Shown here: positions 1 to 64,000 of the stretch, one piece after another
Numbering within the stretch: the stretch's first letter is position 1
How the letters are laid out: each line of letters opens with the position of its first letter
Virus record (IMG/VR): IMGVR_UViG_3300044699_000032
Coordinates: 1 to 64,000 of that record
Origin: a virus
DNA: 64,000 bases
Reading direction: 5' to 3' (one strand)
Made by a program: the position numbers and the translations under genes
Notes under the pieces: model-generated
The model's input: the letters and a program-made list of their open reading frames with translations, nothing else
What the model was told of the DNA's origin: nothing
Database searches by the model: none

Positions 1-277
1 GCCCCCCAGTCTTCGCGTAAACTTTTCGCTTACCCCCCCGTCTAATTGGAAACGCTCACGTTTTCGCGGAGGTTGTGCGGTGCTTTGATGGTCGTGAGTT
101 GCATCGCGTTGCGGTATCGCGTTGCCACAATTTCGTCACGCCACCTGGGCGACGGGGCGAGTGCCGAGCGTTGTCGACGATGAAAGGCATGGCTTAAACC
201 GGAAGCGCGCGCCGATGCTTGCTCTGTGGCGGTAGCGCAACACTTCAAATCATGTGGCAATCATTTGAATATTTAAC

Positions 278-305
278 TTGCATGGCAATGGCCATGCTGT
301 ACACT
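278..305 (+). promoter_or_regulatory. Candidate sigma70-type promoter
   Basis: TTGCAT (278-283) and TACACT (300-305) are separated by 16 bases and lie about 45 bases before the first small gene. The match is moderate and was found by eye, so this is only a candidate. Confidence 0.3.
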
Positions 306-320
306 CTGCATTGTCGAAAC

Positions 321-333
321 CGGCCATTGGCCA
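321..333 (+). repeat. Start-associated repeat, copy 1
   Basis: CGGCC-ATT-GGCCA, a short inverted repeat 15 bases before the start codon at 349, followed by a GGGAG ribosome site. The same element precedes five other genes in the first 3.2 kb. Confidence 0.75.
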
Positions 334-348
334 CCACGGGAGACCACA

Positions 349-489
349 ATGCAAACGCTCGCAATCCTTCTGGTAATCGCTGGTCCGCTTGCTTGCTTCC
401 TAGGCTGCCTTGTTGCAGCGCTTGGGGAAGTGTGGAGCGAAGCACCTCGCAAGGCTAAGGACTACAGCAGCGACTACTGGAATCGCTAA
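349..489 (+). CDS. Small single-span membrane protein (46 aa)
   Basis: The ATG at 349 follows GGGAG with normal spacing and the start-associated repeat, which together make this short frame credible. Residues 4-26 are a hydrophobic helix with two cysteines; the remainder is a short charged tail ending in Asp-Tyr-Trp-Asn-Arg. It probably sits in the inner membrane with the tail in the cytoplasm. I recognise no family. It is the first of a co-oriented set of genes that share the same leader element and so are probably expressed together, perhaps early in infection. Confidence 0.6.
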   Translation: MQTLAILLVIAGPLACFLGCLVAALGEVWSEAPRKAKDYSSDYWNR

Positions 490-496
490 TCGCAAT

Positions 497-510
497 CGGC
501 CCTATGGCCA
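497..510 (+). repeat. Start-associated repeat, copy 2
   Basis: CGGCC-CTAT-GGCCA, 17 bases before the ATG at 528, with a GGGAGA ribosome site between them. Confidence 0.75.
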
Positions 511-527
511 GCACGGGAGATCACGTC

Positions 528-626
528 ATGGTTCGCACTATCGCAGAAACATTCATCACATGGTCAATCATGTCTAATGCCGTTGGCATTCTGATTAAGG
601 AGATACTTCCCCTGATCATGGGATGA
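528..626 (+). CDS. Tiny hydrophobic protein (32 aa)
   Basis: A 33-codon frame starting at an ATG preceded by a good ribosome site and the start-associated repeat. The product is largely hydrophobic with one likely membrane or amphipathic helix. Too short to classify. The main support for it being real is the leader, which is the same as that of its longer neighbours. Confidence 0.5.
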   Translation: MVRTIAETFITWSIMSNAVGILIKEILPLIMG

Positions 627-635
627 TTGCAGCGC

Positions 636-660
636 ATGCCCTAGGTCACGCCTAGGGTAT
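636..660 (+). terminator. Hairpin between small genes
   Basis: ATGCCCTAGG and CCTAGGGTAT pair (one G-T wobble) around a five-base loop, 10 bases after the previous stop. No T-run follows, so it may be an RNA-stability or processing hairpin rather than a strong intrinsic terminator. Confidence 0.4.
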
Positions 661-680
661 GAGCGGCAATCATGCCGGAT

Positions 681-694
681 CGGCCGCATGGCCA
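681..694 (+). repeat. Start-associated repeat, copy 3
   Basis: CGGCC-GCAT-GGCCA, 20 bases before the GTG start at 715, with AGGAG between them. Confidence 0.75.
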
Positions 695-714
695 CAGCCT
701 AGGAGTTCACGACA

Positions 715-1047
715 GTGAAAACCGCAATAGCAACTACTGTTATCTGTGCCCTGATATCGTCGCCTGCTGCTGCTGAACGAATGTCAGCCATGTCAGCCAT
801 GGCAATGATAAGCGCCTACACAACTAACTGTGCAGCATCGCTGCCGATCGCGGAGAACACTCTAAAATACGTGCAGATTCTACTCGATGCCGAAGGCATT
901 AGCGCCAATGGCTCAACCGCAAAGGATCAGCAATTCAGGGCACAGACTATTCTGCTGGCAACTAAATATGGCGAAACCATCAAAGGTAATCCGGTGGCCA
1001 TGTGCGCCACGTTAGAAAAGTCGCTTGCATCACAGCCTAAGCGATAA
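715..1047 (+). CDS. Predicted exported protein (110 aa)
   Basis: The GTG at 715 is chosen because AGGAG and the start-associated repeat lie directly upstream. The N-terminus is a classical Sec signal peptide: Met-Lys-Thr, a hydrophobic stretch to about residue 16, then a Pro-Ala-Ala-Ala cleavage site near residue 20. The mature part is about 90 residues, mostly helical, with two cysteines (about residues 39 and 97) that could form a disulfide in the periplasm. No family recognised. An exported protein in an early-type region may act on the host envelope, but this is inference. Confidence 0.65.
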   Translation: MKTAIATTVICALISSPAAAERMSAMSAMAMISAYTTNCAASLPIAENTLKYVQILLDAEGISANGSTAKDQQFRAQTILLATKYGETIKGNPVAMCATLEKSLASQPKR

Positions 1048-1066
1048 TAGGATAATCACGTTCAAC

Positions 1067-1080
1067 CGGCCGCATGGCCA
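1067..1080 (+). repeat. Start-associated repeat, copy 4
   Basis: CGGCC-GCAT-GGCCA, 17 bases before the ATG at 1098. It has the same core as copy 3. Confidence 0.75.
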
Positions 1081-1097
1081 CAGCAGGAGTTAAGACA

Positions 1098-1978
1098 ATG
1101 GCTAACATTCTCTCACAACGCGCGATGCTCATGACGCTAAGCCTCACGGCGTGGAGCGCGCGCAAACTCGACAAGCGGATCACGGACGAAACCAACGCGC
1201 GCCATGGCGCGGGACATGACGCGGGACGCTACAACAAGCAATTGTTGGCAAAGGAAGCGCTTGCGGAGATCGCGCGAATTGATGCTGAAATCCGTGCGCA
1301 TTACTACGCCGTGACGTCACCATGGCTTGACCGGGAAGGGACGCGAATTCTTTCGTCCGTTCACGCCGTTTCGGAATTGCAATGGTTCCAGCAAAAGCGC
1401 CATGAACGCGAGGATGCAGTATCGCGTTTCGTCGAGGGATATCCTGACTTTGTTCGGGACGCGCGCGCGCGGCTAAATGGCATGTTTCTCCGAGTCGGAC
1501 TATCCTGCCACGTCGACGGTAGCGGGCAAGTTCCGGTTTAGCGTGTCGGTCGATAATGTGCCCGATGCTGATGACTTTCGCGTGGCCATGGCTGACGGGC
1601 AGGCGGATGATATCCGGCGCGAAATCGAGGCGCGTTCGAATGCGGCGGTTGAGACCTGTAATCCGCGATTGTTATCGCGCATTGCCGAGCATGTCGGCAA
1701 AATGTCGGAGCGGCTCAAAGCGTACCGGCCGGCGGTAGGGGACAACAAGGCCGAAGGCATTTTCCGCGACTCGCTGGTCGAAAATGTCCGCGATCTTGTC
1801 GCCCTACTGCCTGCCCTAAATATCACCTAGCGATCCGGCATTGGCTCAAATTGCCGAGCGCATGAAGTCTCTCACTATCGAGGATGCGACGGCACTCCGC
1901 GATCTTCCTGCGGTACGGGAATCGGTCGCGCGCGATGCTGACGCAATCCTGGCCGATGTGACGGCCTTTCTCGCCTAG
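1098..1978 (+). CDS. DUF3150-like protein (frameshifted)
   Basis: The start at 1098 is set by the repeat-plus-AGGAG leader. The protein reads on through two apparent single-base indels, near 1480 (just after Leu-Asn-Gly-Met-Phe) and near 1828, to the TAG at 1976-1978, giving about 293 residues. The N-terminal part (Ser-Ala-Arg-Lys-Leu-Asp-Lys, then Asp-Ala-Gly-Arg-Tyr-Asn-Lys) and the Asp-Tyr-Pro segment in the middle fit what I remember of phage DUF3150 proteins, which are often found beside MoxR ATPases and VWA proteins, as here. Function unknown. A role as substrate or adaptor of the neighbouring ATPase is inference. The family assignment is from memory and moderately sure. Confidence 0.65.
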
Positions 1979-1995
1979 TGTGCTCTAAATGCAAC

Positions 1996-2022
1996 AAGCC
2001 CCGGAATATGCTGCCGGGGCTT
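1996..2022 (+). terminator. Intrinsic-terminator-like hairpin
   Basis: AAGCCCCGG and CCGGGGCTT form a perfect 9-bp stem around a nine-base loop, 17 bases after the stop of the preceding gene. The downstream T content is low, so termination may be partial. Confidence 0.55.
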
Positions 2023-2062
2023 GCTTGCGTCCTAAATACCTATAGAATGATCACGTCGAAAC

Positions 2063-2076
2063 CGGCCCTTTGGCCA
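2063..2076 (+). repeat. Start-associated repeat, copy 5
   Basis: CGGCC-CTTT-GGCCA, 17 bases before the ATG at 2094. A TATAGAAT box (2041-2048), possibly a -10 element, lies just upstream. Confidence 0.75.
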
Positions 2077-2093
2077 TAGCAGGAGATCAAGCC

Positions 2094-3174
2094 ATGTCTA
2101 ATCTCAACCTAGTCACGATGAACCCGACCGAGGCGCGCGACGCGCTTGTTAGGTTCTACAAAATCAATCAACCGGTCATGTTCTACGGTGATCCCGGTGC
2201 GGGCAAGACGTCTATGGTGCGCGATGTTTGCAACAATGCGAGCGCGCTACTTGGCCATCCGCTTGGACTGGTGACCTGGAATCTTTCCATGATGGAAGCC
2301 GTCGACTTGCGCGGCTTGCCTCATGACAACGGGAGCGAAACCGTATGGCGCAAGCCTTCTAATTTTCCGCAGGCAGAACGCGACGGCCTGAAAGGGATTC
2401 TTTTTCTGGACGAAGCGAACACCGCGCGGCAATTGTTCCCGACTCTGATGCAGCTAGTGCTCGATAGGCAGGCAGGCGAACACAAGTTGTTAGATGGGTG
2501 GCTGCCGGTAATCGCTGGCAACTACCGTTCTGCAAAAGGCGTTGCCTGCGATATGCCTGCGCCTTTCAATAATCGCGTGGCGCATATCGATTACGTCCCT
2601 TGCTGGCGTTTCTTTGCTGGTGAACTCGCCGCGAAAATCGGCTACATCCTCTTGTCGTCGCCTATGTGCGCTTTCGCCCCGATATGCTTTCGCTGATGCC
2701 GGGAAAAAAGCCGGATGCGAACCATATCCCTGCGATCCCTGCTGACGCGCGCGCCTATCCGACCTGCCGCGTCATGGGAAGCCGTTTCTAACTTGCTGAA
2801 AAGCAATCCCTCCGACAACGTGCGCCAGCGGCTTATTGCGTCTCTGATCGGACCGGAAGCGGCGGCAGACTTCGAATCGTTTTTCGTGGTCGCGCGCGAT
2901 GTGACTCCGATTGCCGACATTGTCGCGTCGCCTGATACGGCACCATTGCCGACGCAGATTGGCTTGCTTCATGCCGTGACGTCAGCACTCGCGAGCTATG
3001 CGACGCGGGACAACTTCGCAGCGCATCATTCGGTACGGAAAGCGGCTTGCCGATGCCTGGTCAAAGGGAATTCTACGTTGTCCTTGGAACGACGCGACGC
3101 GCCGCAATCCGGACCTAAAAACAACCGGTGCATATACGACTTGGATTGGCGAAAACCCGGACCTGCTAACCTGA
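2094..3174 (+). CDS. MoxR-type AAA+ ATPase (frameshifted)
   Basis: The start at 2094 follows the repeat leader and AGGAG. The N-terminal 170 residues are clear: a Walker A motif Gly-Asp-Pro-Gly-Ala-Gly-Lys-Thr near residue 36 and a Walker B Ile-Leu-Phe-Leu-Asp-Glu near residue 103, followed by a sensor region with Asn-Arg-Val. Single-base breaks near 2600 and 2765 and a third near 3050 move the remaining helical lid into other frames; it ends at the TGA at 3172-3174 for about 360 residues, normal for the MoxR/CobS group. MoxR ATPases usually act as chaperones with a VWA partner, and such a partner is the next gene. A role in phage biology is not established. Confidence 0.85.
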
Positions 3175-3179
3175 TCAAT

Positions 3180-3193
3180 CGGCCCCTTGGCCA
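3180..3193 (+). repeat. Start-associated repeat, copy 6
   Basis: CGGCC-CCTT-GGCCA, 17 bases before the ATG at 3211, only six bases after the stop of the ATPase gene. Confidence 0.75.
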
Positions 3194-3210
3194 CAACGGA
3201 GTCACGCTCA

Positions 3211-4625
3211 ATGTCTAACGTCTCTCAAATCACGGTGGCGCTCGCGAAAGCCCGGACGCAACTTCTCATGTCTGGAGTGTCCGGCGCTTTCCATGGTGCG
3301 CTTCGCAATGTCGCTTGTGCCCGTCATTCGTCCCGATATCGAAACCGCCGCAACGGACGGACGGCATTTTTTCTACAACGCAACATGGTTCGACACGTTG
3401 TCGGAGCGTGAACGCGTTGGCGTTCTCGTTCATGAGATCAGGCACCTAATCGCGCTACACCATTGCCGCCGCAACGGCCGCGAGCTTGTCGGAATTCAAT
3501 ATCGCGGCGGACTACGCGATTAATCCCGGCATCGTCGCGGATGGTTTCAAGCTTCCTGCAAGTGTTCTGATCGATCCGCAGTATGCCGGTTTGAGTGCGG
3601 AAGAGATTTTCCGCTTGCGGCAGGTGCAGCAGCAACAAGCGGCGTCATCGGAGGGCGACGCGTCCGATGATAGCGGCGAGCAATCGGACGAAAGCGGCGA
3701 GACCAGCGAGGATGAAACCGAAGGCGATCAAAGCGACACCAGCGACAAGCAAGGCGAGACCGAAAGCGAGTCGTCCGATGTCGACGGCAACGGCGATACA
3801 GAGTCGGAGAAAGGCGACGGCAAAGGCGACGGCGAACAAGGCGACGACTCCGAGGGCGAGGGCGAGGGCGACAACGCCAGCGACAACGCCGCGCCTATCT
3901 CTGATCCCGGTTCATGCGGCGGGATTATGGACGCCGCGCCAACGCAAGACGCTGCAGCGATGGCGCAAGCGGAGTCAGATATCGATCAGAGAATCCGACA
4001 AGCAATTGCCGTTGCGCGCAAGGCGAATGGTGGCGAATTGCCTGCGGACCTTGCGCGGCTTGTCGGAGAGTTGAAGGCACCTAAGCTAGACGCGCGCGAC
4101 ATGCTGCGGCGCTTTCATCGATCGCAGCATTCAAAAGTCATACGCATGGACGCGACCGAACAAGCGCTATCTGAGTCACGGCTTGACACTGCCGTCCCTA
4201 ATCTCAGATCGGCCCCGGTCACATCGTTGCGCTTGTCGACGTGTCCGGTTCACTTTGGTCGGATGCCGCACAAGCGGCTTTGACCAGTGAACTTGCAAGG
4301 CGCACTCGACAATGGTGCAGCGGACCAAATCACCATTGTCTATGCCGACGTCGACGTGACCGGATCAGCCGAATATTTTCCCGGCGATCGAATTGAAGTT
4401 CAGGCCGAAGGCGGCGGCGGTACCGATTTCGCCGCGCCGCTGCAATGGGTGGCTGACAATTGCGAGAACGTTGCAGCGATCCTTTACCTAACGGACATGC
4501 AAACATGCGACTACGGAGATGAGCCGGACGCGCCGCTGCTGTGGCTTGTTTGCGGCGATCCGCGCGAAGCGAAATACTGGGTAGAGCGCGCGCCGTTCGG
4601 TGAGGTAATCTATATCGATGAATGA
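3211..4625 (+). CDS. Metallopeptidase-like/VWA protein (frameshifted)
   Basis: Starts at 3211 behind the repeat leader. With indels near 3290, 3490, 4205 and 4300 the frame runs to 4625, about 470 residues. In order: an N-terminal domain with the zinc-binding motif His-Glu-Ile-Arg-His (about residue 80), a very acidic Ser/Asp/Glu/Gly-rich linker (about 3640-3895), a helical segment, and a VWA domain with all MIDAS parts: Asp-Val-Ser-Gly-Ser, Gly-Gly-Thr-Asp and Leu-Thr-Asp. This order is that of the putative metallopeptidase plus DUF2201 VWA-like family. It is the natural partner of the MoxR ATPase next door. Cleavage targets and the role in infection are unknown. Confidence 0.8.
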
Positions 4626-4636
4626 TCGGAGTTTAA

Positions 4637-4657
4637 GCCCGCGCCACGCGCGCGGGC
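4637..4657 (+). terminator. GC-rich hairpin after the VWA gene
   Basis: GCCCGCGC and GCGCGGGC form an 8-bp stem with a five-base loop 11 bases after the stop at 4625. No T-run; possible weak terminator. Confidence 0.45.
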
Positions 4658-4692
4658 ATATGCGGCGATCATGCCGACAACGGAAAGTCACA

Positions 4693-5963: not shown

Positions 5964-6449
5964 TCAGACCGTGACCAGATCGCGCTCGAATAATTCCAAC
6001 TCGACGTCAGACCCCAACAGGGAAAACAGTACCCGTGCTTTGAACTTGTCAGACAGGCCAAGATAAACGCCTGCCCATTCTTCCTTGCGCCTTAGCTTTA
6101 CTTGCTGACCGGGACAGAAACTACTGTCGACGCGCACATAGCCGGTCGGACCCTCGCGCGATCGTAATTCCGCGACCACTCGGGGATCGACCGAATAGAT
6201 GAACCCGCTATGTCGAAGGAAATCTCGCACACCGATGAGATTGCGGATGAATTCCCACTGGTCGAGAACCCATGCGAAGAGGTAGCTCGGAAACAATTCC
6301 CTGGCGACCATGCCGCCGGCGCGGAGATTGACCAGATAGCGGGGGCAGTAGGTTTTCATGCCGCGCGCCTTGATTTGGGCCTCAACCGTCTTTTCGGAGC
6401 CGGTGCGACACGCAACTAGAACGATTACGGGTTCGATTGCTACCACCAC
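5964..6449 (-). CDS. NusG/RfaH-like transcription factor
   Basis: About 161 residues. The N-terminal NGN-type domain has the characteristic early segment Cys-Arg-Thr-Gly-Ser-Glu-Lys, then Cys-Pro-Arg-Tyr and a Phe-Pro-Ser-Tyr-Leu-Phe motif near residue 55. The C-terminal part carries a KOW-like element with Pro-Gly-Gln-Gln-Val and Glu-Trp-Ala-Gly-Val. Specialised NusG paralogues such as RfaH bind RNA polymerase and suppress termination. The start is GTG, and two adjacent GTGs are possible (6449 or 6446). The gene begins about 85 bases beyond a strong terminator of the upstream leftward operon, so it could be self-regulated by antitermination or promote late transcription. Confidence 0.8.
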   Translation of the reverse strand: MVVAIEPVIVLVACRTGSEKTVEAQIKARGMKTYCPRYLVNLRAGGMVARELFPSYLFAWVLDQWEFIRNLIGVRDFLRHSGFIYSVDPRVVAELRSREGPTGYVRVDSSFCPGQQVKLRRKEEWAGVYLGLSDKFKARVLFSLLGSDVELELFERDLVTV

Positions 6450-17943: not shown

Positions 17944-18012
17944 ATGAACGCGATCGTGCTGATCAGCCTGCTGGCGTTCCTGCTAATCGCTTGCCAGATG
18001 CCGCTGCGATAG
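17944..18012 (+). CDS. Possible tiny lipoprotein (22 aa)
   Basis: Begins one base after the preceding stop. The whole peptide is a hydrophobic helix ending in Leu-Leu-Ile-Ala-Cys-Gln, a lipobox-like sequence. Very short, so the call is weak. Confidence 0.3.
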   Translation: MNAIVLISLLAFLLIACQMPLR

Positions 18013-41967: not shown

Positions 41968-43568
41968 TCACTGCGTCAGAGGATGTGGATACGTGTATGG
42001 CGCATAATGTGTAACCCAATCATTTGTCGTACCGCAGCGGTACAAGATGCCGAGCCCGGACATTACGGTCGTCGTCACCGCCTTAGATGAACTCTGCGCG
42101 GACTCATTGCCGGCGGCATCGTATGCCGACACAGTGTAGTTGTACGAAGTCGATGGCGAGGCGGTGTCGTCGGTGTAAGAGTTGGTCGCGGACGTTCCGA
42201 TCAAAGAACTGTTGCGATAAATCTTGTAACCTGTGACCCCGACATTGTCGGTCGATGCCGTCCAAGTGAGCCTGACGTGCCCCGCGCCTGCGTCAGTAGC
42301 AAAGTAGCCGACGCCGCCCTTGCCGTCATCTTCCGGTGAACGGGTCGGGTTGGTCGGGTTGCTATGCGTGCAAGTCGTCGGGCGGTTGGCCACCGTGCCG
42401 AACCCCATCCCGACCGTGCCGTTGAACGGACTGGTCGGTGAGGATTGTGCGCTTGCGCTGACTGCATTGAAATAATCGCGATTGTCTTTGATGTATGTCG
42501 TACCAGCCTCGTTCACTCCGTCAACCTTGGCACCGTTGCTGGTATTGGTATTATTCCAAGAATAAACTGGCAGCAAATCACCGGTAGCAAAATCGCGTCC
42601 CATTTGATGAGAGCAAGGATAACCGGTTCCACATGAGTCCACATAGTTTTGCCGTAATCGAAATTGCCGAAGAGTCCATCGTCCCCACTGCCGTGAGGGT
42701 GTTGTTGAAATACATCCCCGTGCCAGACCCCTGATGATGGATCAATCGATATCCATTGGGATAAGTCGACGACGAATTGGCGATGACATGATTGTTGTAG
42801 ATTTCGAAATTCTGAAAGCCGCCGTTGTGGCCAAGCTCGTGTGCAGTCACCAACGAATTGGTGACGGTGTTGTAGCGAAACACTAGGTTCGAACCAGCGC
42901 CCCATCCATCCACCGCGCCCAATCCGGCGTTGGTCATAGTTGTGACGGTAATGGTGTTGTCCTCGAAAAACATATTTTTGCTAGTACCTTGAGGATTAGC
43001 CAAAGGACTCGGGTCTTGTGCTCCAAGGAAATACAGGGGTTCATGAGATGAGCTTCCAGTAAACGTGTTGTGGTCGATCACGCCCTGGACGTATTGAGTC
43101 GAGGTGTTTTCTCCTAAAACAATCGAATGCGCTTCGGCTCCTAAAGCGAAGGAATTATGATCCATTCGAAACTGACTGATCGTCCCGCTACAACCGCCAG
43201 CGGGGCACGTCCAGACCATAAAGTCGCTTGCCGGATTAAAGTTAAATCCCGAGATGCGATAGAGCTTCGTGCTGCTGCCAGTAGGAAAACCGAACACTGT
43301 CCCACTTGTCGAAACGTTGCACGTAGCGCCAACAGCACAAATCAATGTGATACCCTTGGTGAGGAAAACGTTAGCGTGCTGTTCCAGGTGTAGGAACCAT
43401 TAGCGAACGTGAAGGTCGCCCATCCGAAGCGGAGCTATAACTCGTATTTATTTGCGCGATGGTTGTGCCAGACGTGCAACTCCATGTCGTTCCACTGCCA
43501 GAGCACGCAGCATCCGCGACGCCACCGGACAAAGCCAAGGCAAAGAGCGATAGCAAGATTCGACGCAT
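41968..43568 (-). CDS. Secreted-type beta-helix plus FN3 protein (frameshifted)
   Basis: About 533 residues over breaks near 43390 and 42640. Start at 43568: a Sec signal peptide (Arg-Arg-Ile-Leu-Leu-Ser-Leu-Phe-Ala-Leu-Ala-Leu, cleavage after Ala-Asp-Ala near residue 20). Next comes a region with repeated Asn-rich turns (Asp-His-Asn-Ser-Phe, Asp-His-Asn-Thr-Phe, Glu-Asp-Asn-Thr-Ile, Arg-Tyr-Asn-Thr-Val) typical of right-handed parallel beta-helices such as pectate lyase-like depolymerases. The C-terminus has an FN3 domain. A signal peptide on a likely polysaccharide-active protein is unusual for a phage structural cluster. Confidence 0.65.
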
Positions 43569-50464: not shown

Positions 50465-50634
50465 GCAGAGGCTGGCGGCAGTTGCGCCAGACAGGCGTCG
50501 AGCTTGTCTTTGAGATTGTCGACGTGCGCTTGCAGATCAGCGTTCTCTTGTTTGAGCCGGGCAATCTCCGCGTCCTTCTCGGCGACCCCTTCCGCGACGT
50601 ACTCGCCCGGATTTTCATTCAGTTTTCTGCCCAT
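50461..50634 (-). CDS. Small coiled-coil protein (57 aa)
   Basis: The ATG at 50634 lies within the end of the upstream gene, and the stop overlaps the next start (ATGA). Residues 18-48 form a clear leucine-rich coiled coil (Ile-Ala-Arg-Leu-Lys-Gln-Glu-Asn-Ala-Asp-Leu). Maybe an oligomerisation or adaptor protein. Confidence 0.6.
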   Translation of the reverse strand: MGRKLNENPGEYVAEGVAEKDAEIARLKQENADLQAHVDNLKDKLDACLAQLPPASA

Positions 50635-51299
50635 CGCATTGCCTCCTGCACTGTCATCTTGGGATACGCCTTCAACAAACTGACCGTCGAGCAGTTGATC
50701 ACGGTGACGCCGAGGCTGCGCAGAACGGTTGCTGCGCCATCGATCGCGGCGCGCCAGCGCGGCAGATTGTCATTCGGGTGCGGGTTCGACAGCGGCGGAT
50801 AGTGCCGCGGATGCCAGTGCTCACCGAGATCGACGCGCATGTCGAAACCGATCAGCAGGAGTCTTGCAGCGCCGAACTGCACCGCGAGATTGATCCCCTG
50901 GAAACCGCCGTTGCCGCCCGAGCCGATCGTGCCCGGTGTATCAACCAGCAAGTCATTGCTACGTGACATCACCGTGACTTTGCGGATGTCCTTGAACTGG
51001 TCGCACGCCTCGCGATCCTGCGAAATTTTCAAGCCGCCGAACGCTTCCACCCCTTGCCGCATGCGCCACCATGCGGCGTCGCAGCCATAGAGCACGTCGG
51101 CCCACTTACACAACTGCCAGCTTTCATTGATTGCAATGATGCGCGCCTTGGCGCGCAGTAGGTCGATCGGGGCAGCCTTGGCGCTCGGGCCGGAAGCGAT
51201 GATGGCGCAGGCTTGTCCGCGCCAGTCGGGAAACCAGTCAGGTTTTGCCGTGCTGCCAATGCGGAATTCCGGGCTCGCCTTGGGGGCCGCGCTCGCCAT
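50619..51299 (-). CDS. DUF115/MptE-like protein, copy 2 (about 226 aa)
   Basis: The start is uncertain (51299 proposed; it overlaps the collagen-like gene). Contains Ala-Ile-Ile-Ala-Ser-Gly-Pro-Ser-Ala-Lys, Ile-Ile-Ala-Ile-Asn-Glu-Ser-Trp-Gln-Leu, Leu-Leu-Ile-Gly-Phe-Asp-Met-Arg, His-Trp-His-Pro-Arg and Val-Ile-Asn-Cys-Ser-Thr. Each has a direct counterpart in the protein at 36057-36629. The two copies bracket the sugar/adhesion cassette. Confidence 0.65.
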   Translation of the reverse strand: MASAAPKASPEFRIGSTAKPDWFPDWRGQACAIIASGPSAKAAPIDLLRAKARIIAINESWQLCKWADVLYGCDAAWWRMRQGVEAFGGLKISQDREACDQFKDIRKVTVMSRSNDLLVDTPGTIGSGGNGGFQGINLAVQFGAARLLLIGFDMRVDLGEHWHPRHYPPLSNPHPNDNLPRWRAAIDGAATVLRSLGVTVINCSTVSLLKAYPKMTVQEAMRWAEN

Positions 51300-52173
51300 T
51301 CTTGCCGTCCTTGCCGTCCCGTCCATCCCGACCTCGCCGCGATGCCAAATCCCAATCATCGCCCTCACGCGGCGTGCTTTGTGGCTTGTCCTTGCGCGCG
51401 ATCCAAGTCGATCCGCCATAGGTGACTTGATCGCCTAGCAAATACTCTTTTCCACTCTTGAAGCTGCCGCGGTGCAGCACGATAGGGAATGTCAGGGGCG
51501 ACCATTTGGTGATCTCGCCCTGCTTGAAACCGAAGTTGAAACTGCGATCATCGATCCGTTCGATGGTGAAGTCGTCGAGCGAGAACCCGTCACGGCCGTC
51601 CTTGCCAGGAGCGCCGTCCTTGCCGTCCTTGCCGTCCGCACCGTCCTTGCCGAGCACCGGCCCGAGTGTATGGACCGCCCCGTCCGTCAGTGTCACGACC
51701 AGTTGACCCTCGCGATTGATGACCGCGCCAGCGAGGCCAATGCCGTCCGCACCCCGCTCGCCTTGCGCCCCGTTAAAGCCGTCCTTGCCGGCCAACCCCG
51801 GCTCGCCGCGCTCACCCTGCGGCCCCGCTTCGCCCCGCTCGCCGACGCCTCCCGGCTGACCCGGCTCGCCCTGCGGCCCCGCCGCGCCGTCCGCGCCCCG
51901 CTCCCCGGCTGGCCCCGCCTCACCGGCCGGTCCCTGTGGCCCCGGCTCGCCCGATAGGCCGCGCTCGCCCGGCGGCCCTTGCAAGGGCTCGGCCGCCTTG
52001 AGCGCGGCAATCTCTGCCCTTAGCTCGGTGATGACTTGCTGCATCGGTTCGATCGCCTTGGCGACACATTCGGCGATGTGATCCCGCACGACGGGCGCGA
52101 ACCCTGCCGCGACCGCGCTGATAGCGGCGTGGTTCAATCCGTTGCTGCTTGTAGAAATTTGCGTAACTCCCAA
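51238..52173 (-). CDS. Collagen-like structural protein (311 aa)
   Basis: After 65 residues of helical N-terminus come long Gly-X-Y runs (Gly-Pro-Pro-Gly-Glu-Arg-Gly and Gly-Lys-Asp-Gly blocks). A small beta-domain near residues 225-285 has Gly-Asp-Gln-Val-Thr-Tyr-Gly-Gly-Ser-Thr-Trp and ends in a second collagen stretch. Phage collagen-like proteins form trimeric rods such as tail or head fibres. Directly downstream of portal. Confidence 0.75.
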   Translation of the reverse strand: MGVTQISTSSNGLNHAAISAVAAGFAPVVRDHIAECVAKAIEPMQQVITELRAEIAALKAAEPLQGPPGERGLSGEPGPQGPAGEAGPAGERGADGAAGPQGEPGQPGGVGERGEAGPQGERGEPGLAGKDGFNGAQGERGADGIGLAGAVINREGQLVVTLTDGAVHTLGPVLGKDGADGKDGKDGAPGKDGRDGFSLDDFTIERIDDRSFNFGFKQGEITKWSPLTFPIVLHRGSFKSGKEYLLGDQVTYGGSTWIARKDKPQSTPREGDDWDLASRRGRDGRDGKDGKNGERGPQGEPGIPHWQHGKT

Positions 52174-57640: not shown

Positions 57641-59393
57641 CTTTTCCGGGCGTGTGCTGTGTCTGCCGCGCGGTTCAAATCGAAGGCAATCCGTTTCGAC
57701 TGACATCCGTCGCAGCATTCGTCATCGGATCGCCTGTTTCGGGATAGGAAAGCGGCGGAGGGCGCGACGGTTCCGCCGCGCCATATCGAGGCAAGGCAAG
57801 GGCAACGGGAAGGGACCATTTAGCGGCATGCATCGGTAACTGTGTATGCCTTTATCGTCGCAGACGGCGAGCAGCGGGCCGAATCTACGCGGCGGCGTCG
57901 ATCAAGTTCACAGCCCTGGTCCTGTTCGCGCGAACTTGCGCCGTCGACATGTGGCAACAATCGGTGCGTTGAATTATAGTGCTACATGCGCTCGCGGCTG
58001 GAGACGCCGTCCGGCGGTCTAAATACGAGTCGCTGGAATTTGGCTCCTGTATCTCATAGAGCGGGAGCTTTTTCGGCGATTTCAGTCGGAGGAAGACCAT
58101 TCCGGCCCGCGGCCGTCGTAGCGCGCTGTTCGTCGATGAGATTCACGAGCATCGCAAACGGCCCACTGTCGAGTTGTGGGAACGTGGGGTTCAAGTTTCG
58201 GCCGGCAACGTGCTGATCATGCTCACGACAGCGGCAGCGACCGGCACACGGCTCTACTGTGCCTAGGGAGGAACACGAACACGCCGTCAAGGTCGCGGGC
58301 GGCGTGATCGAGGACGACGAGACGTCAGCTTCGTGTGCTTCGCTCGACGACGACGACGACCGCTGGAAGATCCAGACATGCTGCCGATGGCCAACCCGCC
58401 TGCTGAATGTCTCTGATCACGGAAGATTTATTTGGCTGGCGTCTGTGAGAGGTCCAAGCAATTGCCGGCAAGATCAACCAAACATCTCTGCGGCGTCCAC
58501 TTCTGCCGCAGGTGGACGCGAACTGCAAGACGCATGGTTTGAAGCATCCGCGAGGGACGTCGAAGAGCGTCCAGGATCCGACTTTGATCTCGCACTGTCA
58601 ACTCGGGCGAAGGTATGGTCCATGTCGGGCTCGACTGTCAGGTCAGACGCCGGACTAATGACGGCGATCGGACTACGTGTGTACACAGACAAGGGTGTCG
58701 ATACGTCGAGACATCCGCCCGATGTTTGAACGCGTGGATCGAGGCGTGGACCAGCCAGGCGGCGGACCTCGCATAGCGAGCGGAGCGTCTTCGGACAAGG
58801 CCCCGGTATGATACGTGTTCTGGAGAATCGAAGGCGCGGGCACACGGTCACCTGAATGCGTATCTACCCGGCTAGGGTTCATCGGGTTTGCTATGCGTCG
58901 CGGCGCGGTGGCTCGGAGCGTTCGCTCGCTCTACACGGTGAAGATGAAAGACGTGAGCTTACGGACACCTATGGGTATGCAACAGAGAAGCATTTCTCGA
59001 GCACTGTAGTTTGTGACGCGCTCGGGGTAGATCGCTGCCACGATTCTCAGATGCGTGAGCATGCCGCAGGGTCTAGGCAGCGCATAATAGCAAGACGGCT
59101 CTATCGGACCTTGCGCCCGGGATCGAAGGTGACGCTCGAAACCTTGTTTTCTCGAAAGTCGGATTCAAGGATCAGGCGTCTCAGAATCACCACTCGGGGC
59201 CTGGATCTCGGCGATGATTGTCGGCCGCTCGAGCGATAAAACGATCCGTTCGGAAACTTCTGGTTCAAGTAAAACGCGGACGCGACAATCGCATCGGATG
59301 CGCTGTCTCGCTTGCTGGCAATGGCTGTGGGTCCGCGACCGCGCGCCCCGCAGTCCGTAGCGAAGCCGAGCTACCAGTTTAGTCGTCGAGCTA
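57640..59393 (+). pseudogene. Degraded inverted copy of terL
   Basis: Matches the reverse strand of terL with many short insertions and deletions; for example CAGACGGCGAGCAGCGGGCC is shared exactly. The end (about 59360-59393) matches the terL 3' end. No open frame longer than a fragment survives. Probably sequencing noise, not a gene. Confidence 0.85.
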
Positions 59394-59441
59394 ACCACCT
59401 TATCACAATTCTGTACCCCGGATCCAAAGGAGGATAGCGGT

Positions 59442-60105
59442 GATGGATCGGCCGTAATTTCGATATCTCGACATCCGAAATCGGTGAGGGTAAGGAGGCG
59501 CATCATCAGGCATTGCGTCGACACCCTTCGACCGATCGCATGGGCGACATCGTCGAGTCGGAGGGCGCGAAGTTCAGCTGCCGCTGCCGCTGCTTATTGA
59601 TGATATGGAAGACTATAACCACACAGACGCTCGAGCGCGGTGTTGGTTTTGGGTGTACCTGCGCCGCGAAGATGCCATTCCCAACCAAGGACGGCATACA
59701 CCATTCCGATCTGCAACGTTCGCCAAAGGTCGATGAGACTCGGCGGTTAATAAAAAATCACTCACCAGAGTACCGATAAAGCATGGCGGCGCCACAAGCA
59801 TGGACTGAGATACGGGTAATGAGCATTCGGTTTGTCATCCCGTCAACATAGTTAACGAGATCATTGAGAAAAAGGAAGGCGGTCTTCAGAATCGCAAAGG
59901 AGGAGGGGAACTGGCAGGAGAAATATTACCTATAAGCGTGTAACCTTACATTCCTTAACTCGTAAGACAAATTTTCATACGCTGAATCAAGAACGCGATA
60001 TACTCGTTGGCTCCGTTCGCTCGACAGAGGGAATTGGGAGCTGGCATGCTAAAGCGGGACGTTGGACTCGCTGGCCGGGATTTCTACCGAAACCCCATGT
60101 AAATA
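59442..60105 (+). pseudogene. Degraded inverted copy of the protease gene
   Basis: Begins after a near copy of the protease ribosome site (AAAGGAGGATAGCGGTGATG) and includes ACCGATCGCATGGGCGACAT, shared with the original. Broken by frequent indels. Confidence 0.8.
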
Positions 60106-61760
60106 TTAAGGAGCGAGTGTGCATACACAGGACCCAACGCAAGACGAGATATATAGTTGCGCGCTAAAGCTGCGGCGACGTGCGCACGCCGAGGGGATTT
60201 TGACGGCGCAGATGACGGCGCTGATGGATGCTGCGGATTGAAAAGGGCGAAAGCCTCGCGACGACTCGAGCAGGATGAGAAATGGAACCGGGTTCACACA
60301 AGGCGAGGTCGATCATAACTCAGACAAGCCCATCGGTCGCGATTGAGGCGACATGGAGAGCGGTTATTGTAATGTTCACGCGTGTGTTTCTGTCCAGTGG
60401 CGCAGGACTCGGCAGAGGCGGACGGACAAGCTCGTAGCGGCGGGGCGTGAGACGATCTAGGCATCGTGGTTCGTCAACGCGCGACTAGTCGAGCGGTGGC
60501 GGCCATTCGTGCGGATGGTGCTTGCCAATGCTCTGCGCGCGCAAGGCTAAATGGTCTTGGCGGAGAAGGATCGCCAAGGCCAATGAGGCAATGGATGGCG
60601 GAAACGCCCGGAAGTGTTGGCGCATGCAAGGCGGCACGGTTGTCTGTCGAGAACGACATCCGATAGTTCTCGTACGACTGGGGCGGCTGATCAGCGCTGG
60701 TTTTTTTTTTTTTTTTGTGCAATTATCTGAACCTCACGAGCGTTCGCCGAAATTATCTTCGCCCGTTGACTCTTTTCGGTACGCCAATCACCGGACTGCG
60801 TAAACGTGCCATTCAAGGTCAGAAGTGATCCCGCGCTTCCTACTCAAATTACAAAATGACCGGTTGCATCGACCGTCAACTGGGTCGGCGAGGCTGGCTC
60901 CGACAGCACTAAGTCGCGCACGCTCGCACTGTTAAGACAAAGCAATCACGCTACGCACTTCGCGAAGATCCGCCGGAATTATCTCCGCTAACTGAGGAAG
61001 CTCTGTACGATTTAGTCGCCCGTCTGCCGGAACGATACGTTCGTGATGAAAGTGTGGCGGCTGCAATCATCCGAAGTTCATGGTCATGCAGCAGTTCAGT
61101 CGATCATCTCGAAATGCGGCAAACCGCATTGTCTCGCCCGCGTCGATCACGGAAATGGCGTGACGGCCGATTCCGCACGAGAGCTAGAGGCACAACGCGC
61201 GGGCATCATCGGCGCTGCTGTTCCGACGTTAGTCGGCTGATGCAAACCTTTTACCTCACGCGATATGTCGCTCGCGAAGTGCGGTGTGGATCATGACGCA
61301 AGGAGCACATGCTCAATGCCGGAACGCGGCTGATGAACAGAACCCACGCTCGGTCAGCACGGAGTTTGCTGGCATCATAACGTGCAATGGCGGGCACGTT
61401 CGCTGGCATTACTGTTGTCGCATGCTGAAAATATGCCCGTCGACGGACTGGCTCGCATCGGTCAGAGGGCTTTATCCGATGTATTGGCGAAGGCCAACAG
61501 ACCGATTCTGTTGGGATAGACAGAACGGAACTCAAGTGACGATCGATGCAGCCGTGAGTAGAGCATTTCGTTGCAAGAGTGGATGGTCTCGACAGACCGG
61601 ACTCCCTTCGATCCGGCAATCGACCGTTACTGACAGTCTCTCTGGCAAAAATTAATTATGATTGCGATCAAGAATGACTGAAGAGAATTCATCAATTGGA
61701 CCAAACGCGCTCGAAGGCGCGGTGCAGTAACATCGCTGTGCGACTGCTCTTAGCACGTAA
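60106..61760 (+). pseudogene. Degraded inverted copy of the capsid gene
   Basis: Starts at the copy of ATTAAGGAGCGAGTG and ends at TAGCACGTAAGCGTTGGA, near the original stop region. Contains an inserted run of about 20 Ts near 60700 that has no counterpart in the original, a sign of raw-read error. Confidence 0.8.
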
Positions 61761-61879
61761 GCGTTGGATTGGAAGCGAGTCTCAAACTTGGCTGTGAGGG
61801 TCGGTGGGAATGAGTGTTTCACTTCGATCTCCTCTTCTCACTGGGATCCTTCACACTTACTCTCCCATTTTTTGGTGGG

Positions 61880-62128
61880 TCACTTGTGATTGCCGTGACA
61901 TTGTTTTTGTAATACTGTACCAAAGCAAATTCATCGGCGGATGCATGCATGCCGGTGTGAGAGTTCGATAATGCACCGACAAGAGAAGCGCAATCGTCTT
62001 GGCAAGCTCGGGAATGGGTTGGCGTCATTCGGCATGCACCGATGCGTTATGGAGCGCGGTCGTCAAGCAAAGGATGATCCCCGCTTTATCACAGCCCTAT
62101 TTGGACATGCGCGCAGAGTAATGATGTG
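61880..62128 (+). pseudogene. Degraded inverted copy of the 68-aa gene region
   Basis: Shares ACCGATGCGTTATGGA and AAGGATGATCCCCGCT with the original at 53560-53760, with scattered insertions. Confidence 0.75.
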
Positions 62129-63815
62129 ATGCGTTTTTTTATTGCTGCGCGCGCGCTACGGGCGATTCATTCGGACGCGCAAGGATTTCACGTTCCCTGC
62201 CGCACGCTCACGCCGGTGGATAGCGGCAATTGGTGAGTTCCCTGTTGTCCATGAGCCATACACGCTGGGAGGTTGGCACGCAACATCGAGCCCGCCCGGA
62301 AAACATTTCGCTAGTCGCTTTCATTGCTGTCTTGCGTGCGACGATCGCATTTGCTTCCGATGTTGCAAAAAGCCGCCAGCGATTGGTCGAGCTAGATGGC
62401 AGAGGGACTATAGGACGGAAGTCGCCGCGGCCAGCATTTAGCCGGTGATGTCCGCAAGCCTAATCATAATCAGTACGCGCATTCAGTTTTTTCGAGGCAT
62501 GGGATGTTCTTCGAAACTGATGTCTGGGGCAACACCTACATTCTGAAAAGAGGCGCGATAGTCGCGGGTGTATGTAGTTTGGCATGTTACGTGCTCGATC
62601 CGGACGCGTGTGCGGTGTTGCTGGTCGCGCCCGTGGTGCGTCTATTTACGAGAGTATTGTCAAGGGGGACAACCCTGAGACGGCACGACGGATCTCGAAA
62701 AAGGGTCACCGTGCCCAGCGTCAGAGAGCTTCCACGGACAGATGATGACGCTGAAAATTCCATCCGTTGTCGATGTCTATCGACGATAGGCACGGACGCG
62801 CTGGCGTCGGTGCATGGCATCAACAGATTCAGAGCACATTCGACGCAATTCTTTCGCAGAAACAGGCGCGCGCGGATCACGAGCGGCATGATGAGCGCGC
62901 CCAACAGGTGATTCATCAGCAAAGAGAAGACGTATACAAAACGGATCAAAGCTTCACTTCGAAATGTCGGAATTCATGCGGGCCGCAAATCCGGCAAGTT
63001 GCTGTTGTCGGAAGCGGAGTTGAAATTTGTCGAAACGATGACAAAGGATTTTGTTGACTGCGCAATTTTGATCGAACAAGCTGGTGTGGTGACAGCCAGA
63101 TGGTAGAGTGTTCGTCTGTTCGGCTGCCGCCCGCACAAGGGTGCAAGAGTTGGCGCAGATCCCCGAAGCTACAATTCATACATTCGATGTCGTTGAATCA
63201 GGCAATATTCATGAACTCAAACATCGACTAGCTAGAAGCATTTTGTAAAGCGCATCAGAGGCTTTTTGTCTCGACGATGGCTTGGGGCTCGTCGACTCGT
63301 CGCGGGCCACTCTTACCGGCACATGGTTTGAATGTTGTCTCGACTGATTTGCTGACGGTAATGTGAAGATCACCTAGAAGTTACGCTCGCCAGAATCTCG
63401 GAACAGCTGTAATAGCAGACAAGGCCTCGCTAATCAGAATCTCCAATCTAGCGAAGCTTACCGCGCAGCGCGTCTGTGAAAGATCTTCGGGCCAGTTATA
63501 GGGTGGACTCTGCGACAGCTCGCCTGTGTTTGAAATTGTGAGTGCAAAACCTATTCCCTTGATGCCTTAGCCAAAGCGCGTTATGCGAGAAAGCTGGATC
63601 CCTGTTCAGACCAGCGATAGCCTCCCCCGCCCCAATCAGCGCAGCCCCCGGTCCGCCGCTGTGTCTACGACAAAGATTGTTATGCGAAGGAGGGGGGGAC
63701 CCTTGTTGGGGAGTGGGGGTGGTCGAATATGCTGATGATCTTGGCAGGCGAGCACGGGGTGATCGGCAAATCTGGGAGGGGTGATTACGCAAAATTTATC
63801 TCAAGAAAAGCAACG
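62129..63815 (+). pseudogene. Degraded inverted copy of the portal gene
   Basis: A fragment at 62142-62441 still translates to Pro-Val-Val-His-Glu-Pro-Tyr-Thr as in the portal protein. Later words such as GCTTGGGGCTCGTCGAC also match. Not functional as read. Confidence 0.85.
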
Positions 63816-64000
63816 GATATGAACCAGACCTTATCGCGCAGGTGCGGGGCAGGGTTCGCGCCCCGTCGAGCGGGATCTCATAGCCGAATGTGTCGCCAAG
63901 GCGATCGACGATGCAGCAAGTCATCACCGACGCTGAAGGGCAAGAGCGCAGAGCATATCTGCCGCGTCTCGCTAGGAAGGTCCGAGCCCTGTTTGTGCAA
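63780..64000 (+). pseudogene. Start of a degraded inverted copy of the collagen-like gene
   Basis: Contains GAATGTGTCGCCAAGGCGAT and GATGCAGCAAGTCATCACCG, both exact matches to the reverse strand at about 52.05 kb. The window ends here, opposite about 51,985 in the original. Confidence 0.85.

Follow-up and report, generated by a model that had tools for sequence, protein, structure and literature searches.

A GGCC dyad ahead of the starts of six early phage genes as a candidate distributed DNA operator

Why do six rightward genes in the first 3.2 kb of a soil-type phage sequence each carry the same small inverted repeat just before their start codon? The window analyzed here is a stretch of 64,000 nucleotides, positions 1 to 64,000 of the virus record IMGVR_UViG_3300044699_000032, which holds 67,219 bases in total. 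An earlier note had described the element as CGGCC-N3/4-GGCCA, placed 15 to 20 nucleotides (and four times exactly 17) before the start with the ribosome site in between, and our measurements bear this out: six exact copies lie on the + strand at 321-3193, the distances from right arm to start codon are 15, 17, 20, 17, 17, and 17 nt for dyads 1 to 6, and a GGAG stands in between in all six cases. The right arm reads TGGCCA at every window dyad, and the loop has 4 nt in five of them and 3 nt in the remaining one.

All six dyads and their genes are on the + strand. Dyad 1 (321..333, CGGCC-ATT-GGCCA) lies 15 nt before gene 1 (349..489), which encodes a small hydrophobic protein of 46 aa, and dyad 2 (497..510, CGGCC-CTAT-GGCCA) is intercistronic, 7 nt past the stop codon of gene 1 and 17 nt before gene 2 (528..626; 32 aa). 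Dyad 3 (681..694, CGGCC-GCAT-GGCCA) comes after a long hairpin and 20 nt before the GTG start of gene 3 (715..1047), a protein of 110 aa with a signal-peptide-like start and no match in Pfam. The remaining three dyads are each 17 nt ahead of their genes: dyad 4 (1067..1080, CGGCC-GCAT-GGCCA) precedes the DUF3150-like gene 4 (1098..1830), dyad 5 (2063..2076, CGGCC-CTTT-GGCCA) precedes gene 5 for a MoxR-like AAA ATPase (2094..3174), and dyad 6 (3180..3193, CGGCC-CCTT-GGCCA), a few nucleotides past the MoxR stop, precedes gene 6, which combines a DUF2201 metallopeptidase with a VWA-like domain (3211..4625). The family name of gene 4 comes from a full-length relative above the Pfam cut-off (PF11348) and from the MinM2 annotation. 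In jumbo phages, a MoxR-VWA pair is a proposed chaperone system for virion assembly (PMC7824862). Each of the last three genes (1098-4625) contains frameshifts—near 1490 in gene 4, near 2690 in gene 5, and more than one in gene 6—that are probably uncorrected indels of this record; gene 4 is open in the relative L139, whose protein is 90% identical.

Could a G+C-rich genome have produced such a series by chance? GGCC is common in G+C-rich DNA and three further GGCC-N3/4-GGCC copies are found in the window, but dinucleotide shuffles yield a mean of 0.63 and a maximum of 3 exact dyads, with six or more in none of 100, all six copies stand before starts, and the dyad recurs at orthologous genes of L139. 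A chance origin, refuted by the shuffles together with this recurrence, retains a vanishingly small probability. Neither is the motif equally dense within coding regions or away from starts, a pattern that the earlier note had said would refute it: no exact copy lies within 3194-57000 on either strand, and none of the one-mismatch copies at 42379, 42387, and 47139 precedes a gene. A seventh exact dyad of the record, at 64956, falls into a region (58003-67219, of which 58003-64000 belong to the window) that is an inverted copy of 57064-49176 with 78% identity and 1532 gap positions. This tail has the look of a fold-back artefact from sequencing or assembly, and its genes and motifs should be disregarded; since it is an error-rich inverted copy we discount the match at 64956 as an artefact. 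Elsewhere in the window, a protein encoded on the - strand (50619-51419) matches the phage family phrog_4603, annotated as sialyltransferase.

The relative L139 (IMGVR_UViG_3300005356_000281; L229 is the same contig reversed) has a terminase 91% identical to that of the window phage and carries several window genes in the same order adjoining the terminase genes. This phage has four dyads: three precede the orthologs of genes 1, 2, and 4, and the fourth precedes another gene. None of the 10 sites of the two phages departs from CGGCC, GGCCA, or the T ahead of the right arm, whereas spacer length differs at 3 of 3 orthologous sites: from 3 to 4 at gene 1 (CGGCC-GCAT-GGCCA in L139), from 4 to 3 at gene 2, and from 4 to 5 at gene 4. 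Because the arms are invariant and the spacers changed in this way, selection evidently maintains the arms but does not constrain the spacer. The terminase of the window phage is also similar to terminases from phages of Rhizobium, Sinorhizobium, and Paracoccus, and this likeness hints at a host among the alphaproteobacteria.

The same comparison bears on the idea of a mobile start cassette, in which promoter, dyad, ribosome site, and start would have been copied between genes and the dyad would be a by-product. In T4-type phages, the promoter early stem-loop cassettes are a proposed case of such gene-to-gene copying as a unit, and the sites analyzed here are indeed alike beyond the dyad (TCGAAACCGGCC, GATCACGTCGAAAC, GGAGNTCA). 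In both phages, however, divergence has affected the flanks and the loop and spared the arms, so that selection on the arms is needed, and we regard copying as an improbable source of the pattern.

What, then, is being selected? Promoter-like boxes lie directly upstream of 6 of the 10 dyads in the two phages, with 7 to 15 nt from the end of the -10 box to the dyad, and each of the six scores within the top 5% when ranked against 2000 random positions. In the window (all on the + strand), the boxes before dyad 1 (278..305, TTGCAT-16-TACACT) end 15 nt short of it and are equaled by 2% of background, those before dyad 4 (1025..1053, TTGCAT-17-TAGGAT) end 13 nt ahead (1.5% of background), and those before dyad 5 (2021..2048, TTGCTT-16-TAGAAT) end 14 nt ahead (0.3%); the boxes before dyad 6 (3146..3172, TTGGCG-15-TAACCT) are weak (4.8%). 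The boxes at gene 1 (TTGCGT-16-TATGTT in L139) and both boxes at gene 4 recur in the relative with the sequence between them changed. The four sites without boxes are intercistronic: in the window those before genes 2 and 3, and in L139 those before the gene 2 ortholog and the gene at L229:3858. Just 5' of the gene 1 boxes, window positions 244-269 contain another dyad, TTCAAAT-N12-ATTTGAA, in a stretch nearly identical in L139.

With slightly better than even confidence, we would judge that the dyad serves as a short operator in the DNA, placed repeatedly before the genes of one early regulon. A DNA-binding protein, encoded by the phage or recruited, would recognize both GGCC arms and switch the gene set jointly. 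The copies at genes 1, 4, and 5 would span about +6 to +20 from the likely transcription start, where a bound protein could block promoter clearance, and the intercistronic copies at genes 2, 3, and 6 might act as elongation roadblocks in the manner of stoperators. Several features count against an operator. Among them, the variation in spacer length at 3 of 3 orthologous sites is odd for a rigid dimer site, 4 of 10 sites lack a nearby promoter, and an operator would not require so narrow a range of distances to the start codon.

Further evidence comes from a scan for AACCGGCC-N2/3-TGGCCA-N4/6-GGAG, which matched only L139 and two other contigs; a collection scan with 14 fixed bases gave chance matches only and was set aside, as were the pattern matches in L132 and L130, which are unrelated single or double copies. 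One of the two contigs, L294 (also L298 and G054; IMGVR_UViG_3300032305_002284; 59 kb), has about 14 near-identical early promoters of the form TTGAC-N17/18-TATAAT, and the dyad is found at seven of them: four copies sit between the -35 and -10 boxes and the other three 12 to 13 nt past the -10 box, the latter being the same position as in the window. Seven of the eight GGCC-N3/4-GGCC copies of this record lie at the promoters, whose share of the sequence, 30 nt downstream included, is 2.7% (binomial probability about 8e-11), and a T precedes the right arm in 6 of the 7 promoter dyads. The four copies in the promoter spacers lie outside the RNA made from that promoter and for this reason must act as DNA. 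We detect no protein homology between the window and L294, so that this phage supports our reading of the window by analogy and not by descent, and the same dyad may have different readers in the two phages. The same dyad is thus found at several promoters, both by the boxes at genes 1, 4, and 5 and in L294, as a distributed operator regulon demands. The earlier note had offered two functions, a site bound by a phage protein and a hairpin controlling translation of the whole set; we favor the former because the dyad sits between the -35 and -10 boxes of an unrelated phage, and the latter is possible but would leave the ribosome site open.

Such a hairpin is the main rival of an operator: the GGCC arms would pair in the mRNA into a 4-bp stem with a loop of 3 to 5 nt upstream of an open ribosome site, where the hairpin may protect the 5' end or bind a translation regulator. 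All 10 sites fold into the same stem (-6.1 to -7.4 kcal/mol), which excludes GGAG and AUG, loop length changes between orthologs while the arms stay, and the dyad tracks the start codon whether a promoter is present or absent. Moreover, long covarying hairpins occupy the same gaps. Two of these lie on the + strand of the window, one at 625..672 before gene 3 (GATTGC...GCAATC, -36 kcal/mol with flanks) and one at 4623..4672 after gene 6 (GATCGG...GCGATC, -30 kcal/mol with flanks). The former has three relatives in L139 whose upper stems differ yet stay complementary. Long hairpins of L229 stand at 3508, 3768, and 4190, and the set from both phages spans -29 to -36 kcal/mol. Their base (GATTGC...GCAATCATGCCG) is conserved, their upper stem covaries, and no T run is present; some directly precede a dyad, and they recall the RNase III processing sites between T7 genes. 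By contrast, the GGCC arms never vary and show no compensatory change, and the four spacer dyads of L294 are outside the transcript of their promoter. A search of the window against Rfam gave no family above gathering score. Taken together, we consider an RNA hairpin rather unlikely as the selected object, and operator and hairpin need not be one device across all phages.

The DNA operator that we prefer gains from a look at other phages with MoxR, DUF3150, and VWA genes. Homologs of gene 4 were found in 27 viral contigs (a scan of viral contigs with the MoxR protein gave no match), and many of these have a different, phage-specific dyad at the same place, such as TTAAAA-N3-TTTTAA, ATTAACC-N2-GGTTAAT, ATTTACC-N-GGTAAAT, GTTACCG-N2-CGGTAAC, GGAAAT-GGAG-ATTTCC, or GGACA-AA-CTTAG-N6-CTAAG-AA-TGTCC, among others. 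A scan for constant-gap dyad families that was blind to gene positions returned 7 of 28 DUF3150-type loci vs 1 of 200 controls (Fisher 1.5e-6, or 1.1e-5 after merging related loci), with 0 of 79 among terminase relatives and 1 of 121 among pattern-fetched contigs. The single positive control, L040 (IMGVR_UViG_3300048839_001685), was dismissed, as it has REP-like ACGGCTCGGCGAGCCGTGCCACC repeats that are partly tandem and not start-associated. In 10 of the 28 loci, the upstream regions of MoxR and DUF3150 have a dyad-bearing segment in common with a score of at least 13, while pairings of unrelated loci never exceed 10. Some phages have the module without a dyad family, since the control loci L014, L057, and L058 carry the trio genes and lack one.

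Several of these other dyads are 15 to 18 bp long, and in G048 and G044 some are immediately upstream of promoters. The Planktothrix phage Pag-Yong1, an isolate with the same gene trio, has 37 copies of GGTTCAGNCTGAACC (at most 2 mismatches), of which 21 fall into the 60 nt before an annotated start, a zone that makes up 9.2% of positions (binomial 5e-13); eight copies are at 21 to 22 nt, and 18 of the 37 have their midpoints inside coding sequence. These palindromes, the copies beside promoters in G044 and G048, and the coding copies of Pag-Yong1 argue, along with the promoter positions in the window and L294, for an operator. The pattern in G041 (IMGVR_UViG_3300046782_000297) is a different one, with 43 copies of GTGTAAASTTTACAC (at most 2 mismatches) spread over 67 kb including the structural genes. 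Signs of RNA pairing exist as well: the arms in G053 and L245 are split by conserved AA/AA internal loops, which would form no palindrome at the DNA level, and the inner stem in G031 is altered with compensation. Against pairing, some hairpins of relatives are weak as RNA (-2.2 kcal/mol in G047 and -2.8 in G046), and one start-associated hairpin is inverted in place between the related phages L245 (3898) and G053 (15164), a change that alters an RNA and not a DNA dyad.

An operator would account for the same layout with other dyad sequences in the trio phages if each regulator shifts its specificity, and the mirrored motifs before shared genes look, from their sequences, like the site of a fast-changing on/off switch. 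We put forward tentatively, as a possibility short of even, that the trio phages share an unrecognized system in which a fast-changing regulator acts on phage-specific dyads at module and early-gene starts, with the GGCC dyad as one allele. A further point against an operator is that no binding protein turned up: the record has no match to HTH_3 or to an integrase, and clustering all proteins of the dyad phages gave no regulator family common to them, the only recurrent genes being MoxR, DUF3150, VWA, and those of replication or virion type. Because window frames are broken by indels, a small regulator could have been missed. A NusG-family paralogue (PF02357) is encoded at 5964-6449 on the - strand of the window and likewise in the DUF3150-type records G031 and G039; we rejected it as the common partner, given its presence in only 3 of 30 records. 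The dyad sequence is new and its link to a gene module appears to be so, with the term DUF3150 absent from the searched literature. Phages that have one gene module in common, a sequenced isolate among them, and are otherwise dissimilar thus show the start-associated layout in differing sequences, and such a supply of natural alleles of one site makes the binding protein searchable by co-variation. The promoter spacers of one phage contain the same dyad, which also offers a direct test of DNA against RNA.

How does the dyad relate to known phage elements? The hairpin promoters of the N4 virion RNA polymerase are likewise short dyads upstream of early genes; no such polymerase was detected. The giant proteins of three relatives, considered as such polymerases, match DarB-like or unknown families, and the T7-type polymerase profile PF00940 was silent, though it was silent in every control as well. 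The earlier note had been reminded of the start-associated sequences of mycobacteriophages, a likeness that extends to architecture and ends at sequence. The ESAS/SAS elements of cluster K, described in 2011 with a role still unproven, are also inverted repeats just before starts, mostly of non-structural genes and mostly in one orientation (PMC3203893), and their consensus varies by subcluster, its role being untested (PMC3203893, Pope et al. 2011; PMC12699233). The dyad shares with ESAS its location directly upstream of non-structural gene starts, but ESAS arms are imperfect 17-bp repeats 4 to 13 bp apart that adjoin an SAS, whereas the window arms have 4 to 5 bp and a spacer of 3 to 5 bp, without an SAS (PMC3203893). 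The SAS itself is the asymmetric GGGATAGGAGCCC (PMC3203893), for which a search before starts with at most 2 mismatches gave one match, at 18006 with two mismatches, against 0.77 expected. The stoperators of cluster A mycobacteriophages such as L5 are similar in having many one-direction copies, some at promoters and others between closely spaced genes, as the dyad does, but they are 13-bp asymmetric sites with a known monomeric repressor (PMC9283540), while the window element is a dyad—though with a one-sided spacer T—for which no repressor was found. The dyad resembles both ESAS and stoperators and fits neither definition. SPBRE of the Bacillus phage SPbeta, bound by MrpR, is again a short element repeated at the promoters of a phage regulon, and about 24 years passed before its binder was known (PMC10516654). 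SPBRE has 15 bp and belongs to a temperate phage (PMC10516654), whereas the window phage has no integrase match and its dyad is intercistronic too. By analogy, stoperators and SPBRE may serve as functional models for the GGCC dyad: repeated phage sites that are read by one repressor.
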